A stretch of DNA of 36,186 nt from Marmoricola sp. (lineage in GTDB: Bacteria; Actinomycetota; Actinomycetes; Propionibacteriales; Nocardioidaceae), in NCBI GenBank assembly GCA_025964795.1, contig JAOPYC010000057.1, forward strand, positions 1 through 36,186. The letters run 5' to 3'. Numbering within the stretch: the stretch's first letter is position 1; each line of letters opens with the position of its first letter. The notes under the pieces were generated by a model that worked only from the letters and a program-made list of their open reading frames with translations, made no database searches and was not told where the DNA came from. The position numbers and the translations under genes were made by a program. Below are positions 2,496-35,268 of this stretch, in pieces.

Positions 2496-5400
2496 TCAGA
2501 ACAACGCAACCTCGATGGCCGCCGCATCAGACGTCGGATCGATGAGATCGCTGACCGTTGCGTGGCCGAGTGCTCGGTAGGCCTCGAAGTCGAACTCGCT
2601 GTAGAGCTGGTTGTTGGTGCTGGTCCGGGGGAAGTCGGGATTGTCGTCGGCGTAGGTCTGGATGTCCCACGTCACATCGCCCACCATGACCGCCTTGCAC
2701 AGGAAGATCTGCCCTTCCTGGTCGGTGTCCGAGAACTTGTAGCTCCCCACGCACCATGCCGCGCGAGCAGGCTTCACCTTGCTGATCCGTCGCATGTTGC
2801 GCGGGTCCAGGCGTACGTCGCAGTCAAGGTCCATCCGAGCCGTGGCGATGGTTCGCCCGAGTGTCCGAAAGCTGTCCTCCTTGTCGTTCGAGGCGTCCAG
2901 CAGGATGATCCGATCCGGGCGTCGCCGCAGCGCCTCGATCAGCCCGAGGTTGTCGTAGTGACCGCCATCGGTGACGTAGAGGAAGCGGTCGTAGATCGAC
3001 GCCTTGCCGACCGCCTCCTTGGCCAGGCGCGCGAGACCTGGCTTCTTGAACACCGCGCGCGCCCCCTCGACGTACTTCCAGCCGCGGGTGCCTCGTTCGG
3101 GGAACGAGTCCACCGTCTTCTCAACCTGCGCCTCGGCGTGCTCGAGCTGCTCCTGGGCCCTTCTCACCTCTGCCAGCAGCTGCTCGAGCATGTTCCTCGC
3201 CTCGAGGGTCCCAGCGCCTGTCGCGGCTCCTCCGAGCTCTGCCCGGAGCCTGGCCACCGCCTTCGCGGCCGCATCGGCCGACCTCCGACGGGCCGCGACC
3301 TCGTGGCTGAGACGGGCCAGGCCCTCGTACCGTTCCCACTCCTCGTCGTCGAGCTTCGGATGCTCGGGTCGCTCCGACGCCGTACCCCTCAAGCGGTCCA
3401 GGGTCCTCGCGGCCTCCTCCCACCGGCCGAGGCGTCGGAGCCGCTTGAACAGCCCCACCTCGTCGACCCACAGCGGGTTGGGGAGCCAGACCCCGAGGCG
3501 TGCGTTGGCCAGGGCCAGCACCGCGCGATAGGGGCCCAGGCGCACGTTCTCCCGTCCGGCCAGTGGCGAGAACGCGGCAGCGCTCATGGCCAGCGCCGCC
3601 GGCACCGTGGCGTCGTGGTACCACGGGTCGGCAGCGAACTCGTAGGTGGCGCTCTCACGCCGTCCCGCGCCGGGCGGCAACAGGCGATCGGTCAACCCGA
3701 TCGCCGTGTGGTCGAAGACGAAGGGCACGCAACCGCGCTTGCTGGGCACGATCTCCTCGTCGCTCACGTTGGCGACGGCACAGGCGATCAGCTCCGGTCC
3801 TCCGTCCAGTGGGTCCGACTCCGAGAACCGGAGCGGGCGGCGGTACGGGATGGGTTCCACCCTCGCGCCCACCTTGCGCACGAGGAAGGCGCCCGAGATC
3901 CGCTCGCGGAAGAAGTGGTGCAGCGACGTCCGGTTGGCGTCGGTGCCCAGCTTCGCGAACACCAACAGGCCACCGAACCAATAGGCGAGCTCCCAGTGCG
4001 TCAGCAACGTGGGATCGGCGACCAGGGCAGCCACCCATCGGAGCAGCACGATGACCAGAACCAGCACCACGGCGATGAGCGCCACCCATGGCACGAGTGG
4101 GTCCTTGACCTTCTTCCAGATGGTCGCCCAGACCTTGCCGAGACCGGAGTCGCCGGTCGCCGACTCCTTGCCCGCGCTCTTGACGCTACCCAGCACCGCC
4201 AGGATCGCGCTGACGATCGCGCCGATCGTCGCTCCGGAGACCTTGGCCGCCGAGCTCGAGGCCACCTGGCTCTTGGTCGTCGACAGCCCGAGGGCCCGGA
4301 CCAGGTCGGCCCACACCGAGCTGTTGCCGGCAGCGAAGGAGTCCAGGGACTGCAGCAACCACGGCACCCCCAGCAGCAGGATCGCGGCGGCGCCCCCACC
4401 TACGATCAGCACCGAAGTCGCGCGTTCGGCTGTTCCACGCGTCCGAGCCGAGGGGATCCACCATCGTTCGACGACCTTGCGTGCCACGAACAGTCCCACC
4501 CCCGCCGCGGGAAGCCACCACACGTCCTCGACCGGAGACCAGTCCTGGCCGAAGCTGCCGTGGGGCAGCCGCCCGGACGCGACGAAGAGCCATCCCAGGA
4601 CCCAGGCCAGCCCCCCGAGCAACGCGGCCAGGAGAAGCAGGTTGACCGCGATCCCGAAGGCCAGGGAGAGCACCGCCTGCAGCGCCACCTTCACCGAACC
4701 GAGCACGTACCGCGTGTGCCGACGCACCCAGCCGGTCTCCGGACTCGGGAGTCCGTACGGCGAGGCGCCGCCGGATCCCACCCGGCCTGGCCACTCCGCA
4801 CTCGTGTCGTCGGTGTCGCCCGGGTTCCACCGAGCCACGTGGTAGGCCGCGCCCATGTAGCCCCCACCACTCACTCCGAGAACGGCTCGTGCCGAGGCGT
4901 AGATGCCGGCGTCAGCCAGTGCCTCCAGTCCACCCAGGCTGAAGGCCGCGGACCGGATGCCGCCGCCGGAGCAGCAGATGACGTCTCCACCGGTTTCGCG
5001 CGAGCCGGCGTCCGATGGGTCGGTATAACGGTCGTGGGCCCCCCGGAGGCCGAGGACGAAGGTCACGCCGAGCAGGATCAGGCCGCCGAACACCAGCACG
5101 TGGACGGCCGCGCTGAACGTGGCGACGCCGAGGTCGACACCGAGTCCGGCGTTCCACGACAGGGTCAGGGAATCCCGGGACACCAGCCGTTGGTCGACCA
5201 GACGCCACAGCTTCCAGTCCTCCCACAGGTCCATCGCCGCGCCCGCGAAGACGACACCGACCAGGACGGCGTTGAGCCGGAGCAGCCAGCCCGCAGGACG
5301 CAGGGACCGCAGCAGACCGAAGGACCGGTAGGCGAGCAGGAGGTAGGCGAAGATCATGGCGGCGTCCACCATCAGCGACAGCCGGCCGGGCACGACCGCC

Positions 5401-5600
5401 CCGAAGGTGGCGGCGTGGGTGCTCTCCCAGCGGCCGGTCGCCACCTGACGCATCGGCCATTGAGCCGCGAACAGGATGAGCACCATTCCAAGCGTCTGCA
5501 ACGCCTCGGTTCGTCGACCCCGCTGGACTGCTCGGAAACCGTCCAGCCCGTACTCGGCGTTCGGGCCTGACTCTCTGCTCACGTACCCGGATGTGTCCAC
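2496..5600 (-). CDS. Large patatin-like phospholipase-family membrane protein
   Basis: 1034 residues from GTG 5600, chosen because AGGGGA lies 6 nt upstream; a TTG at 5618 would add six residues. The first ~190 residues hold about four transmembrane helices. Patatin motifs follow: an oxyanion loop (CSGGGIRSAAFSLGG, about 210) and the nucleophile elbow GVSGGG with Ser near 244. A long insert then carries at least five more hydrophobic segments (about 300-550), a soluble part and a charged, Ala-rich coiled-coil-like stretch (about 750-830). Only then comes the second catalytic motif, TDGGHYDNLGL with Asp near 878. The Ser-Asp dyad predicts acyl-ester hydrolysis, probably of membrane lipid. The C-terminal FDFEAYRALG stretch resembles other large bacterial patatin-like proteins. 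It stands alone, convergent to tRNA-Leu. By eye its GC is somewhat below its neighbours, so it may be acquired. Substrate and role unknown. Confidence 0.82.
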   Translation of the reverse strand: MDTSGYVSRESGPNAEYGLDGFRAVQRGRRTEALQTLGMVLILFAAQWPMRQVATGRWESTHAATFGAVVPGRLSLMVDAAMIFAYLLLAYRSFGLLRSLRPAGWLLRLNAVLVGVVFAGAAMDLWEDWKLWRLVDQRLVSRDSLTLSWNAGLGVDLGVATFSAAVHVLVFGGLILLGVTFVLGLRGAHDRYTDPSDAGSRETGGDVICCSGGGIRSAAFSLGGLEALADAGIYASARAVLGVSGGGYMGAAYHVARWNPGDTDDTSAEWPGRVGSGGASPYGLPSPETGWVRRHTRYVLGSVKVALQAVLSLAFGIAVNLLLLAALLGGLAWVLGWLFVASGRLPHGSFGQDWSPVEDVWWLPAAGVGLFVARKVVERWWIPSARTRGTAERATSVLIVGGGAAAILLLGVPWLLQSLDSFAAGNSSVWADLVRALGLSTTKSQVASSSAAKVSGATIGAIVSAILAVLGSVKSAGKESATGDSGLGKVWATIWKKVKDPLVPWVALIAVVLVLVIVLLRWVAALVADPTLLTHWELAYWFGGLLVFAKLGTDANRTSLHHFFRERISGAFLVRKVGARVEPIPYRRPLRFSESDPLDGGPELIACAVANVSDEEIVPSKRGCVPFVFDHTAIGLTDRLLPPGAGRRESATYEFAADPWYHDATVPAALAMSAAAFSPLAGRENVRLGPYRAVLALANARLGVWLPNPLWVDEVGLFKRLRRLGRWEEAARTLDRLRGTASERPEHPKLDDEEWERYEGLARLSHEVAARRRSADAAAKAVARLRAELGGAATGAGTLEARNMLEQLLAEVRRAQEQLEHAEAQVEKTVDSFPERGTRGWKYVEGARAVFKKPGLARLAKEAVGKASIYDRFLYVTDGGHYDNLGLIEALRRRPDRIILLDASNDKEDSFRTLGRTIATARMDLDCDVRLDPRNMRRISKVKPARAAWCVGSYKFSDTDQEGQIFLCKAVMVGDVTWDIQTYADDNPDFPRTSTNNQLYSEFDFEAYRALGHATVSDLIDPTSDAAAIEVALF

Positions 5601-5763
5601 GGCGCGTCCCCTCGACAAACCAACACGCTAGTGCGCCGATCAGTCCGATATCTCTAGACCAGATGAGCTATTGACGAATGCGTGGCGACGGGTGCGACGC
5701 GATCGTGCTTCATCATCGTCTGGCCGAGGCGTGAGCCACCCCGCCCTGGGGTACGACGCGCCC

Positions 5764-29029: not shown

Positions 29030-29046
29030 TCTTGAAAGGTTCCGAC

Positions 29047-31377
29047 ATGTCTGTCGCTACACGCCTCCCGGTCCTGTTCGTCGCGGACCTCGTCATCCTG
29101 CCCGGCATGGTCGTCCCCCTCCAGCTCGACGAGTCCTCGCAGGCCGCCATCGATGCGACCGGAAGCAGCGAGGACGGCCGGCTCCTGGTGGCTCCCCGGC
29201 TCGAGGGCCGCTACGCGTCGTACGGCGTGATCACCAGCGTCGAGCGCGTCGGCCGGTTCAGCGGCGGCGCCCCCGCCGCGGTGCTCAAGGCCGAGCGTCG
29301 CGCCAAGATCGGCAGCGGCGTGACCGGGCCCGGGGCGGCGCTCTGGGTCGAGGTCGAGCCCGTCGCGGATGTCGAGTTCAACGGCGACACCCCACGGGCG
29401 CACGCCCTCGCCGAGGAGTACAAGCGACTCGTCGTCGCCGTCCTCCAGCGCCGCGACGCCTGGCAGGTCATCGACTCCGTGAACCAGATGGACGATCCCG
29501 GTGCGCTGGCCGACGCGGCCGGCTACGCGCCGTACCTCTCGACCGAGCGCAAGCAGCAGCTGCTCGAGACGCCCGACGTCGAGGAGCGGCTCTCCACGCT
29601 GATCAGCTGGACCTCGGACTACCTGGCCGAGGTGGAGGTCACCGACAAGATCGGCGAGGACGTCCGCGAGGGCATGGAGAAGAGCCAGCGCGAGTTCCTG
29701 CTGCGCCAGCAGCTGGCCGCGATCCGCAAGGAGCTCGGCGAGGGTGAGCCCGAGGGCTCCGAGGACTACCGGGCGCGGGTGGAGAAGGCCGAGGTGCCCG
29801 ACGCCGTGCGCGAGGCGCTGGTGCGCGAGGTCGACAAGCTCGAGCGGTCCAGCGACCAGAGCCCCGAGACGGCCTGGATCCGCACCTGGCTGGACACCGT
29901 GCTGGAGCTCCCGTGGGGCGTGACGACGCAGGACATCACCGACCTGGCGGCGGCGCAGCAGGTCCTGGACGCGGACCACCACGGTCTCGACGAGGTCAAG
30001 GAGCGGATCGTGGAGTACCTCGCGGTCCGTGCCCGTCGCGCCGAGCGCGGCCTGCAGGTCGTCGGCGGCCGGGGCTCCGGCGCCGTGATCCTGCTGGCGG
30101 GTCCTCCCGGGGTCGGCAAGACCTCGCTCGGCGAGAGCGTCGCGCGGGCCCTGGGTCGCAAGTTCGTCCGCGTCGCCCTGGGTGGCGTCCGCGACGAGGC
30201 GGAGATCCGCGGCCACCGCAGGACGTACGTCGGGGCGCTGCCCGGACGCATCGTCAGGGCGGTCAAGGAGGCCGGCTCGATGAACCCGGTCGTGCTGCTC
30301 GACGAGGTCGACAAGGTCGGTGCGGACTACCGCGGCGACCCGGCCGCCGCCCTGCTCGAGGTGCTCGACCCGGCGCAGAACCACACCTTCCGCGACCACT
30401 ACCTCGAGCTCGACCTGGACCTCTCCGACGTGCTGTTCATCGCGACCGCCAACGTCGTGGAGCAGATCCCCTCGGCGCTGCTGGACCGGATGGAGCTGGT
30501 CACCCTCGACGGCTACACCGAGGACGACAAGGTCGCCATCGCCCGCGACTTCCTGCTGCCCCGGCAGCTGGAGCGGGCGGCCGTGACCGAGGACGAGGTC
30601 ACCGTGAGCGACGCCGCGCTGCGCGAGCTGGCGGCGAACTACACCCGCGAGGCGGGCGTGCGGCAGATGGAGCGGTTCCTGGCCAAGCTGCTGCGCAAGG
30701 CCGCGACCAAGCTGGCCACCGCTCCCCAGGTGAAGCTCGAGATCGACGAGCCCGACCTCAAGGAGTTCCTCGGCCGGCCGCGCTTCGAGCCGGAGTCGCA
30801 CGAGCGCACGTCGGTCCCGGGCGTCGCGACCGGCCTGGCCGTGACCGGGCTGGGTGGCGACGTGCTGTTCATCGAGGCGAGCGCCAGCCAGGGACCGGCC
30901 GAGCTCAAGCTCACCGGGCAGCTCGGCGACGTGATGAAGGAGTCGGTGCAGATCGCGCTGTCCTTCGTGAAGTCCCACGTCGAGCAGCTCGGGATCGACC
31001 CGAAGTCCCTGGACCGCACGATCCACGTGCACGTCCCGGCTGGCGCCGTACCCAAGGACGGGCCGTCGGCGGGCGTCACGATGGTGACCGCGCTGACCTC
31101 GCTGCTGACCGGTCGCCCGGTGCGCGGGGAGGTGGGGATGACCGGTGAGGTCACCCTCAACGGGCGGGTGCTGCCGATCGGCGGCGCCAAGCAGAAGCTG
31201 CTCGCCGCCCAGCGCAACGGCCTCACCGAGGTCTTCCTCCCGGCCCGCAACGAGCCGGACCTGGACGACGTACCGGCCGACGTCCTCGCCGAGGTCACGG
31301 TCCACCTGGTCGGCGACGTCCTGGACGTGGTCGCGGGTGCCCTGGAGCCGGCGGCGGTGGCCACCGCGGCGGCCTGA
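29047..31377 (+). CDS. lon: ATP-dependent Lon protease
   Basis: 776 residues from ATG 29047, chosen over the in-frame TTG at 29032 because GAAAGG then serves as ribosome site. Domain order is complete: N-terminal substrate domain (TRLPVLFVADLVILPGMVVP), coiled-coil middle, AAA+ ATPase with Walker A GPPGVGKTS near residue 350 and Walker B VVLLDEVDKVG, then the serine-lysine protease domain with Ser674 in KDGPSAGVTM and Lys715 in GGAKQKLLAA. Lon degrades damaged and short-lived regulatory proteins in the cytoplasm, using ATP. The HAIR-like site upstream suggests heat-shock control by HspR (not in this window). The MarR gene upstream ends 116 nt away. Confidence 0.97.
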   Translation: MSVATRLPVLFVADLVILPGMVVPLQLDESSQAAIDATGSSEDGRLLVAPRLEGRYASYGVITSVERVGRFSGGAPAAVLKAERRAKIGSGVTGPGAALWVEVEPVADVEFNGDTPRAHALAEEYKRLVVAVLQRRDAWQVIDSVNQMDDPGALADAAGYAPYLSTERKQQLLETPDVEERLSTLISWTSDYLAEVEVTDKIGEDVREGMEKSQREFLLRQQLAAIRKELGEGEPEGSEDYRARVEKAEVPDAVREALVREVDKLERSSDQSPETAWIRTWLDTVLELPWGVTTQDITDLAAAQQVLDADHHGLDEVKERIVEYLAVRARRAERGLQVVGGRGSGAVILLAGPPGVGKTSLGESVARALGRKFVRVALGGVRDEAEIRGHRRTYVGALPGRIVRAVKEAGSMNPVVLLDEVDKVGADYRGDPAAALLEVLDPAQNHTFRDHYLELDLDLSDVLFIATANVVEQIPSALLDRMELVTLDGYTEDDKVAIARDFLLPRQLERAAVTEDEVTVSDAALRELAANYTREAGVRQMERFLAKLLRKAATKLATAPQVKLEIDEPDLKEFLGRPRFEPESHERTSVPGVATGLAVTGLGGDVLFIEASASQGPAELKLTGQLGDVMKESVQIALSFVKSHVEQLGIDPKSLDRTIHVHVPAGAVPKDGPSAGVTMVTALTSLLTGRPVRGEVGMTGEVTLNGRVLPIGGAKQKLLAAQRNGLTEVFLPARNEPDLDDVPADVLAEVTVHLVGDVLDVVAGALEPAAVATAAA

Positions 31378-31391
31378 GCGCCGGCCCCGAC

Positions 31392-31436
31392 CCGCGTTGC
31401 ATGCATTGCGGGGGTGGGCGGCGGGCGCGATAGGTT
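31392..31436 (+). promoter_or_regulatory. Candidate ppc promoter with palindrome
   Basis: CCGCGTTGCATGCATTGCGG (31392-31411) is a near-palindrome centred on TGCATGCA. TTGCGG (31406-31411) and TAGGTT (31431-31436), 19 nt apart, look like -35 and -10 boxes, so the palindrome overlaps the -35. It could equally be the lon terminator, as it lies 15 nt after the lon stop. A GTG at 31446 would give a near-leaderless start for ppc. Confidence 0.45.
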
Positions 31437-31520
31437 CTCCGTCAGGTGCCGCCGACGTCGCCGGCTCTGTTCACCCCGACGTGCACGGACCCCGGTCCGT
31501 CCGACCTCGCTGAGGCCCCC

Positions 31521-34208
31521 ATGTCCGAGCACCTGCCCCAGTCCGCCGAGGCGCCGCTGCGCCGCGACATCCGCATCGTCACCTCGATGCTGGGTGACAC
31601 CCTGACCCGCACGCACGGGCAGGACCTCCTCGACCTGGTGGAGAGCGTGCGCAAGGCCGCCAAGGACGACGCGCTCTCGCTGCCCGAGCTCGACGTCGCC
31701 ACGGCCACGACCCTGGCGCGCGCGTTCACGGCGTACTTCCACCTGGCCAACGTCACCGAGCAGGAGCACCGCGGGCGCGCGCTGCTGGAGACCCGGGCCG
31801 CGGAGGGCGGCCCGCTGGCCAACGCCCTGGGCCGGGTGCGTGACCGCGGGATCGACCCGACCGACGTGGCCGAGGCGGTGGCCCAGGTGGCCGTGCGGTC
31901 CGTGTTCACCGCGCACCCCACCTAGGTCCAGCGGCGTACGACGCTCGACAAGCTCCGCGCCGTCGCCGCCCTGCTCGAGGAGGAGGACACCCCCCGCCGC
32001 CGGACGCGGCTGGAGGCGGCCGTCGACCTGCTCTGGCAGACCGACGAGCTCCGGGTCGAGCGGCCCGAGGTCATCGACGAGGCGCGCAACGGCATCTACT
32101 ACCTCGAGGGGCTCACGTCCGCCGCGGTGCTCGACGTCCTCGAGGAGCTCGAGGAGACGCTCGCTCCCTGGGACGTGACGCTGCCGCTGACCACCACCCC
32201 GCTGCGGTTCGGCACCTGGATGGGTGGCGACCGCGACGGCAACCCCAACGTCACCCCGGCGATGACCCGGGAGGTGCTGCGGTTGCAGGCCTCGCACGGC
32301 ATCACAGTGATCCGCCGCAAGGTCAACGACCTGCGCCGCACGCTGTCGGTCAGCGAACGGCTCTCGGAGGTCTCCGAGGACCTGCGGGCGCGCACGAACG
32401 AGATGCTCGACGAGCTGCCGGAGGTGGAGCCGCGCTACCGCCGGCTGAACATCGAGGAGCCCTACCGGCTGTTCCTGACCTGCGTGGACCTCCGGCTGCA
32501 GATGACCGACGCCCGGATCAGCACGGGTGGGACGCACCGGCCCGGTCGCGACTACCGCGACGACGCCGAGCTGCTCGAGGACCTGCTCCTGCTGCACGCC
32601 TCGGTCGAGGAGCACCAGGGGCCCCTGATCGCGGGGGGCGACCTCAAGCGGCTGGTGCGCACCGTCGCCGGGGCCGGGCTGACGCTGGCCACGCTCGACG
32701 TCCGCGAGCACGCGGAGAAGCACCACCACGCCGTCGGCCAGCTCTTCGACCGGCTCGGCACCCTCGACGTCCCGTACGCCGAGCTCGACCGGGCCCAGCG
32801 CCGCACGCTGCTCAGCGACGAGCTCGCGATCCACCGGCCGCTCTCCCAGCAGCCGCCGCCGATCGACGACGACGGGCGCCGGACCGCCGAGGTGTTCGGG
32901 GTCATCCGGGAGTCGCTGGACGCGCTCGGCGAGCGCGCCATCGAGAGCTACATCATCTCGATGACCGAGGACGTCGACGACGTGCTGGCCGCCGTCCTGC
33001 TGGGTCGCGAGGCCGGGCTGGTCGACCTCGCCGACGGCACCGCGCGGGTCGGGTTCGTGCCGCTGCTGGAGACCATCGACGAGCTCGAGCGGATCGAGCC
33101 GATCCTGGACGGGCTGCTCAGCGACCCGTCGTACCGCGCCCTGGTGGCGGCCCGCGGCGACATGCAGGAGGTGATGCTCGGCTACTCCGACTCCAACAAG
33201 TCCGGCGGCATCGCCACCTCGCAGTGGCAGATCCAGCGGGCCCAGCGCACCGCGCGCGACGTGGCCCGCAAGCACAAGGTCCGGCTGCGGTTCTTCCACG
33301 GTCGCGGGGGCTCGGTCGGTCGCGGCGGCGGTCCGACGTACGACGCGATCATGGCGCTGCCCTTCGGCACCGTGGACGGCGAGGTGAAGCTGACCGAGCA
33401 GGGTGAGGTGATCAGCGACAAGTACGCCCTGCCCGTGCTCGCCCGCGAGAACCTCGAGCTGCTGGTGGCGGGCACGCTGGAGGCCAGCCTGCTGCACCGC
33501 ACCGACCGTCGTACGCCGGAGCAGGCGGAGCGCTGGGACGCCCTGATGGACGCGGTCTCCCAGAACGCGCACGCGCGCTACACCGAGCTGGTCGAGCGAC
33601 CGGAGCTCCCGGAGTACTTCCTGGCCTGCACCCCGGTCGACCTGCTCGGCTCGCTGCACATCGGCTCCCGGCCCTCGCGCCGCCCGCAGCAGGACGGCGG
33701 CCTCGACGGGCTCCGCGCGATCCCGTGGGTGTTCGGCTGGACGCAGTCGCGGCAGATCGTCCCCGGGTGGTTCGGCGTCGGGTCGGGCCTGGCCGCGGTC
33801 GCCGACGAGGTGGACGAGCTCCACGAGATGTACGAGCAGTGGCCGTTCTTCCGCACCTTCCTCGACAACGTCGCGATGACGCTGGCCAAGGCCGACCTCG
33901 ACATCGCCGAGCGCTACGTGATGGCGCTCGCCCCGGTGCACACCCACGGCATCCTCGACCTCGTTCGCGAGGAGTTCGAGCTCACCGTGAAGCAGGTGCT
34001 GGCCGTCACCGGCGACGCCGCGCTGCTCGACCGCGAGCAGGGCCTGCGTACGACGCTCGAGGTGCGCGAGAACTACCTCGAGCCGCTCCACCTGCTCCAG
34101 GTCCAGCTGCTGGCCCGGATGCGCGACGGCGAGGACGACCCCGACCTCGAACGAGCCCTGCTGCTGACCATCAACGGCATCGCCGCCGGGATGCGCAACA
34201 CCGGCTGA
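31521..34208 (+). pseudogene. ppc: Phosphoenolpyruvate carboxylase interrupted by an in-frame amber codon
   Basis: One reading frame of 896 codons from ATG 31521 encodes a full-length PEPC, except that codon 135 (31923-31925) is TAG. It falls exactly in the catalytic motif TAHPTE: the frame reads VFTAHPT, stop, VQRRTTLDKL, so TAG replaces the invariant Glu (GAG to TAG is one base). The essential His (His132, His138 in E. coli) is intact. All later motifs remain: GTWMGGDRDGNPNV, VMLGYSDSNKSGG, FHGRGGSVGRGGGP, IPWVFGWTQSR and C-terminal NTG. No other stop or frameshift is visible. PEPC makes oxaloacetate from PEP and bicarbonate. If TAG is real and not suppressed, only a 134-residue fragment is made, unless a late start (e.g. 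32127) is used. Either a very recent null allele or a base-call error. Confidence 0.92.
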
Positions 34209-34230: not shown

Positions 34231-35268
34231 GTGCTCGCCGTCGTCTACGACCGTCCCCTCGCGGTTCCCGAGGTTCGCGAGGTCGAACCGCCCTCCTGCC
34301 CCGCCGACGGGGTGGTCCTCCGGCTGCGGGCGACCGGGGTGTGCCGGTCGGACTGGCACGCGTGGAAGGGACACGACCCGGTGCCGCTGCCGATGGTGCC
34401 GGGGCACGAGTTCGCCGGGATCGTCGACCAGGTGGGCGCCGACGTCGGGAGCTGGCAGGCCGGCGACCGGGTGACGGCGCCGTTCGTGATGGGCTGTGGC
34501 CACTGCGCCTGTTGCAGGGCCGGGGACCAGCAGGTGTGCCCGGACCAGGCCCAGCCCGGCTTCACCTACCCCGGCTCGTGGGCCGAGCTGGTCGTCGTAC
34601 CCGCTGCGGAGACCAACCTGGTGCGCCTGCCCGACGACGTCGACTTCGTGTCCGGTGCCGCCCTGGGCTGCCGCTTCGCCACGTCGTTCCGGGCCCTGTA
34701 CACCCACGGAGAGGTGCAGCGCGGCCAGGTGGTCGCCGTCCACGGTTGCGGCGGCGCCGGGCTGTCGGCGGTGATGATCGCGAAGGCGCTCGGTGCCCGG
34801 GTGCTCGCCGTCGACGTGGGGGAGGGCGCCCGGGGCCTGGCCCGCACGCTCGGCGCGGACGAAGTGGTCGACCCGGCGGAGTTCCCCGACGTCGCGGCCC
34901 GCATCCGGGAGCTGAGCGACGGTGGGGCCCACGTCTCCCTGGACGCGGTCGGCATCCCGGCGGTGGCCGCCGCGTCGGTCGCCTGCCTGCGTCGTCGCGG
35001 TCGCCACGTCCAGGTCGGCCTGCTCCTCGGCCCGGACGCGACGGCGGGCCTCCCGATGGACCTGGTCGTCTCCCGGGAGCTGCAGGTGCTCGGCTCGCAC
35101 GGCATGCCGGCCGGCGACTACCCCGCGATGCTCGCGATGATCGCCCGCGGCGACCTCGACCCGCGTCGCCTCGTGGGCGCGGAGATCGACCTCGCCTCGG
35201 CCCCGGCGGCCCTGATGGCGATGGACCGGCCGGCCACGGTGCCGGGCCTCACCGTGATCGGCCTGTGA
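34231..35268 (+). CDS. Zinc-dependent alcohol dehydrogenase (MDR family)
   Basis: 345 residues from GTG 34231. Catalytic zinc ligands are Cys38 (GVCRSDWH) and His59-Glu60 (PGHEFAG). The structural zinc site is Cys89, Cys92, Cys95 and Cys103 (GCGHCACCRAGDQQVC). The cofactor loop is VHGCGGAGLSAVMIAKALGA. These are all features of class I-type zinc alcohol dehydrogenases. It is expected to oxidise a primary or secondary alcohol with NAD(P). A -10 box TACGAT (34218-34223) lies 7 nt before the start, so it is probably leaderless. It begins 22 nt after ppc and ends 3 nt before the convergent TetR gene. Confidence 0.94.
   Translation: MLAVVYDRPLAVPEVREVEPPSCPADGVVLRLRATGVCRSDWHAWKGHDPVPLPMVPGHEFAGIVDQVGADVGSWQAGDRVTAPFVMGCGHCACCRAGDQQVCPDQAQPGFTYPGSWAELVVVPAAETNLVRLPDDVDFVSGAALGCRFATSFRALYTHGEVQRGQVVAVHGCGGAGLSAVMIAKALGARVLAVDVGEGARGLARTLGADEVVDPAEFPDVAARIRELSDGGAHVSLDAVGIPAVAAASVACLRRRGRHVQVGLLLGPDATAGLPMDLVVSRELQVLGSHGMPAGDYPAMLAMIARGDLDPRRLVGAEIDLASAPAALMAMDRPATVPGLTVIGL

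Follow-up and report, generated by a model that had tools for sequence, protein, structure and literature searches.

The window that we analyzed, a stretch of 36,186 nucleotides from a member of the genus Marmoricola (genome G000), carries a phosphoenolpyruvate (PEP) carboxylase gene, ppc, whose frame runs from the ATG at 31521 to the TGA at 34206-34208 and is open throughout except for a single in-frame TAG at 31923-31925 (plus strand). We favor, with a probability of roughly one half, the explanation that this TAG reflects one miscalled base in the consensus sequence of a binned draft genome. In that case, codon 135, now read as TAG, would be GAG (Glu) in the living cells, and their PEP carboxylase would be ordinary and of full length. 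A real and young nonsense mutation appears nearly as likely, because 10 of the 24 genomes of the genus yielded no ppc and because G000 also carries a gene for pyruvate carboxylase (pyc). The most likely causes of the stop are ordinary ones. The sequence-only reading of this stretch had listed a recent nonsense mutation, a wrong base call and read-through of the amber codon; this proved to be the right set of options, of which the first two stand and the third is unsupported.

The stop divides the gene into two parts that share one frame. The part before it (31521..31922, plus strand) comprises 134 codons, ends in TAHPT and matches positions 1-138 of the profile PF00311 (E 1.1e-22), while the part after it (31926..34208, plus strand) comprises 760 codons plus the TGA and matches positions 140-919 (E 2e-261), as well as the E. 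coli enzyme 1fiy. Taken together, the 2 parts match the profile over its full length of 919 positions, with one residue position absent and nothing else. The gene therefore resembles bacterial PEP carboxylases (PF00311; NCBIfam NF000584) in all but that position, and differs from them in the one in-frame TAG that follows TAHPT, by which the frame is interrupted under the standard bacterial code. The junction TAHPT-TAG-VQRRTT reported earlier was confirmed in the frame 31521-34208, and the other 894 codons contain neither a second lesion nor a further stop. By itself, the C-terminal piece scores 797.7 against an NF000584 cut-off of 815. With TAHPT at the end of the 134-residue piece and the remaining motifs in the C-terminal one, neither piece would be expected to work alone. 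A genome-wide search found one ppc, with 1 TAG inside; a second copy, proposed earlier as something to look for, was not found in the genome.

We compared codon 135 between G000 and its relatives. Among the other genus members, 13 ppc genes were found, one of which is cut off at a contig end; codon 135 is covered in 12 of these, and reads GAG in all 12. A single base thus separates the TAG from the codon of every same-genus gene that covers the site, which speaks for a base error, and which bears out both the GAG-to-TAG change proposed from the sequence and the comparison with the closest relatives that had been suggested as a check. In a first set of 29 ppc loci from relatives, GAG was found in all 26 that cover the codon (L015, L024 and L031 do not). 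In a second set, consisting of the best 80 of 588 confirmed loci, 79 were readable (L039 does not cover the codon), with 70 GAG, 8 GAA and 1 CAG; the 2 sets overlap, as L035 lies on the same contig as L011, and L039 on the same contig as L015. The lone CAG (Gln) among these best 80 belongs to L036, a locus from a Frankiales MAG (L036:2992-2994). Residue 135 adjoins the catalytic histidine of TAHPT. Aligned to solved structures, the site is occupied by Glu in the E. coli enzyme and by Gln in the four plant-type chains shown. Because Gln occupies the same site in plant PEP carboxylases and in L036, the residue is not invariant, and its earlier description as an active-site Glu was overstated.

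The remainder of the gene appears to be under constraint on either side of the stop, judging from the sequence comparisons. Pairwise dN/dS against genus member G013 is 0.18 before the stop and 0.19 after it, and ranges between 0.10 and 0.37 in the other eight pairs computed. At the protein level, the G000 gene departs from the 12 other genus genes at 4 of 330 columns that are invariant among these, stop included, and keeps the conserved residue at the other 326; for comparison, each of the 12 departs at 0-14 of its own 326-340 invariant columns. With no other stop, full profile coverage and this degree of conservation, the earlier view that ppc is intact apart from the TAG holds. We further polarized the codon changes on the branches leading to G000 and G013, taking G013 as the sister of G000 on the basis of DNA identity (85% vs 84%) and dN; this is an assumption, since, by dS, G009 and G003 are both closer to G000 than G013 is. 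On the G000 branch, 13 synonymous and 2 nonsynonymous changes precede the stop, and 39 and 14 follow it; on the G013 branch, the corresponding counts are 13 and 3 before, and 75 and 15 after. The nonsynonymous-to-synonymous ratio after the stop (14:39 vs 15:75 in G013) lies in the direction expected for relaxed selection, and hence for a young null, though the difference is not significant (p = 0.20). As there is no other stop and no significant relaxation of selection, we rejected a decayed pseudogene, and the stop, if real, looks young on this sequence evidence.

We scanned 1,025,343 bases of the genome (24%) for stops within continuous coding frames. An initial 791,802 bases yielded 16 candidates, and another 233,541 bases added 3. 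These 19 candidates were read, mostly by eye from their protein context, as 3 clean mid-gene TAGs, 3 damaged genes and 13 ordinary gene ends, with the readings for L232, L238 and L240 being the least certain. The three clean mid-gene stops, all of them TAG with no TAA or TGA, lie in ppc; in glpX, encoding a class II fructose-bisphosphatase (L197:4832-4834, equivalent to G000:C57:44832-44834), between GEGEKD and APML; and in an acetamidase/formamidase gene (L209:9625-9627, contig C94 of G000, minus strand). Singled out at first as a notable event, the stop in ppc is not unique, being one of three single TAGs in about 1.03 Mb. The 3 damaged genes combine a stop with further apparent damage, and are NlpC/P60-like (L193:7801-8328), decarboxylase or aminotransferase-like (L198:13164-13475) and phage integrase-like (L235:3876-4304), the latter two named by eye. 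In control scans of 439,001 bases of G003 (11 candidates) and 287,344 bases of G013 (4 candidates), ~0.73 Mb in all, every candidate was read by eye as a gene end and no clean mid-gene stop was recognized. The excess of nonsense in G000 over these two relatives is not significant (p = 0.27) and was rejected as a signal. A homology-based scan, in which 117 of 529 frames from relatives gave matches, returned 13 stop rows and 3 frameshift rows for G000. Three of the stop rows represent the ppc site, and the other 10 were judged by eye to be antisense or boundary frames. On G003 and G013, control runs of the same scan produced no frameshift rows; their stop rows, numbering 6, 2, 3 and 1, were likewise judged by eye. 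The acetamidase site, which the other comparisons show, was missed by the homology-based scan.

The 2 additional sites were read in relatives as well. In glpX, we read the corresponding codon at 24 loci, drawn from the 23 remaining genus members, and found AAC (17), GAC (4), CAC (2) or AAT (1), so that Asn, Asp or His would be expected in G000. Each of these codons is two steps away from TAG, and at least one real change must therefore have come first. The gene was found in all 24 genus members, and glpX is the only fructose-bisphosphatase gene found in G000, where the search for a class I enzyme gave no match; a true glpX null would thus be costly. For the acetamidase gene, the codon in the one relative read (G003) is TCG, encoding Ser.

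Several of these observations argue for a base error in ppc. The assembly is a draft of 4,322,372 bases in 204 contigs, with 92.4% completeness and 3.9% contamination. No 16S rRNA gene was found in it by a search that was positive in just 9 of 14 control genomes, so that this absence is only suggestive, and tRNA-Ile(GAT) and tRNA-Gly(GCC) are absent among its 43 typed tRNAs. It looks like a draft binned from a metagenome. The two further single TAGs in such an assembly, one of them in the only fructose-bisphosphatase gene found, point the same way, and the 2 changes that can be read, from GAG in ppc and from TCG in the acetamidase gene, both belong to the G:C to T:A class. When the stop is left out, this class makes up 0 of the 77 polarized changes on the G000 ppc branch and 10 of 116 on the G013 branch (p = 0.007 between branches). 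Against an error, however, G:C to T:A changes do occur on the G013 branch, the polarization depends on G013 being taken as the sister, the glpX stop required an earlier real change, and the contrast of three stops in 1.03 Mb with none in 0.73 Mb of relatives falls short of significance. Moreover, a few young nulls occur in real genomes, too. Avoidance of the tetranucleotide CTAG was considered as a further sign of error and dropped, because a C precedes the TAG in 69 of 127 such stops despite the depletion of CTAG. This depletion is strong in the scanned contigs, where 1.01 Mb contains 301 copies and 1046 would be expected.

A very recent nonsense allele, by which ppc would just have been switched off or would still be segregating while pyruvate carboxylase refills the TCA cycle, competes closely with this explanation. 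It is helped by the patchy distribution of the gene: ppc was found in 14 of the 24 genus genomes and pyc in 8, some of these genomes being incomplete, and the 2 occur together in only three (G000, G013 and G021). In five of the 24, neither gene was found. The pyc gene of G000 passes the TIGR01235 cut-off; its first ~135 residues fall off the end of the contig, and its neighborhood is shared with G013. Its presence fits the earlier expectation that anaplerosis would run through pyruvate carboxylase if PEP carboxylase were lost. The other enzyme then named, PEP carboxykinase, is represented in its GTP-dependent form by two fragments at contig ends, which may be one gene or two, since their profile ranges overlap. 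What weakens the case for a young null is that the division between ppc and pyc across the genus falls short of significance (p = 0.20), that no second lesion has accumulated in the other 894 codons, and that the similar TAG in glpX, as the only fructose-bisphosphatase gene found, is hard to reconcile with a tolerated loss. One stop, no other damage and a draft assembly are features that G000 shares both with young pseudogenes carrying a single nonsense mutation and with consensus errors in draft or metagenome-binned genomes. If the base is wrong, the case warns that isolated false stops can occur in the central-metabolism genes of draft genomes; if the nonsense mutation is real, we would be seeing ppc caught in the process of being lost, in a genus with patchy ppc and pyc. 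Among the titles and abstract openings listed by our literature search, none deals with this pattern. One report takes the truncation of predicted proteins to indicate assembly errors (PMC6785717), where the cause is long-read indels, in contrast to the substitution here.

Only proven read-through would be a surprise, and the evidence is against it. We regard it as very improbable that the amber is read through to give a full-length PEP carboxylase, whether by a suppressor tRNA or by a near-cognate tRNA-Gln; Gln at the amber would turn the motif into HPTQ, as in plants. The idea draws on the fact that three otherwise continuous genes carry a stop and that each of these is TAG, and on the natural occurrence of Gln at this site in plant enzymes and in L036. 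In E. coli, read-through of UAG in the absence of a suppressor tRNA is reported to insert Gln (PMC8954436), which would suit it as well. Yet TAG is not depleted as a terminal stop in G000: among 548 long coding frames (791,802 bases), 94 (about 17%) terminate with it, compared with 50 of 312 for G003 and 28 of 172 for G013. Release factor RF1 is present above its cut-off (G000:C64). The amber-suppressor tRNA that had been suggested as a check was not found either: none of the 43 typed tRNAs has the anticodon CTA, an absence that falls short of proof because the assembly lacks some expected tRNAs. Finally, the three TAG sites do not share one residue, with Glu expected in ppc, Ser in the acetamidase (from one relative) and Asn, Asp or His in glpX. 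By these measures of an amber-recoded genome, applied to the genome sequence, recoding or strong suppression of TAG in G000 is not supported. The sequence leaves room for weak leakage of TAG without a suppressor tRNA. Least probable of all the readings is a real, leaky TAG at which tRNA-Gln would yield a low dose of HPTQ-type PEP carboxylase beside pyruvate carboxylase, with glpX dosed likewise, in which case a common amber brake would act on gluconeogenic as well as anaplerotic flux.

Two further candidates were set aside. The selenocysteine system reads TGA and not TAG, so that the single tRNA-Sec match to exceed its cut-off (not among the 43 typed tRNAs) does not explain the stop. A restart of translation or a split enzyme is unsupported, since the first start codon in the frame downstream of the stop is the GTG at 32127, and starting there would cost 202 residues, including TAHPT.

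In the surroundings of ppc, the upstream neighbor is a Lon protease-like gene (29032..31377, plus strand; PF05362, PF02190 and others) and the downstream neighbor a zinc-binding alcohol dehydrogenase-like gene (34231..35268, plus strand; PF08240, PF00107), each in one open frame. A dehydrogenase also lies directly 3' of ppc in G013 (L162), and was not seen in that position in the compared stretches of G003, G009 and G002. Antisense across ppc runs an open frame of 1150 codons (30639-34091, minus strand) with no Pfam match, which probably represents a shadow frame such as arises in coding DNA rich in G+C. Elsewhere in the window, two open frames of roughly 1000 codons overlap on opposite strands (2499-5618, minus strand; 2562-5570, plus strand), and neither has a Pfam match. 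The homology-based scan listed a possible frameshift relative to G013 (L267) within positions 1490-2426 of the window, around 2206-2238, at the upstream end of an FhaA-like gene and beside a tRNA-Leu gene (2327-2411); this site may lie outside the coding part.
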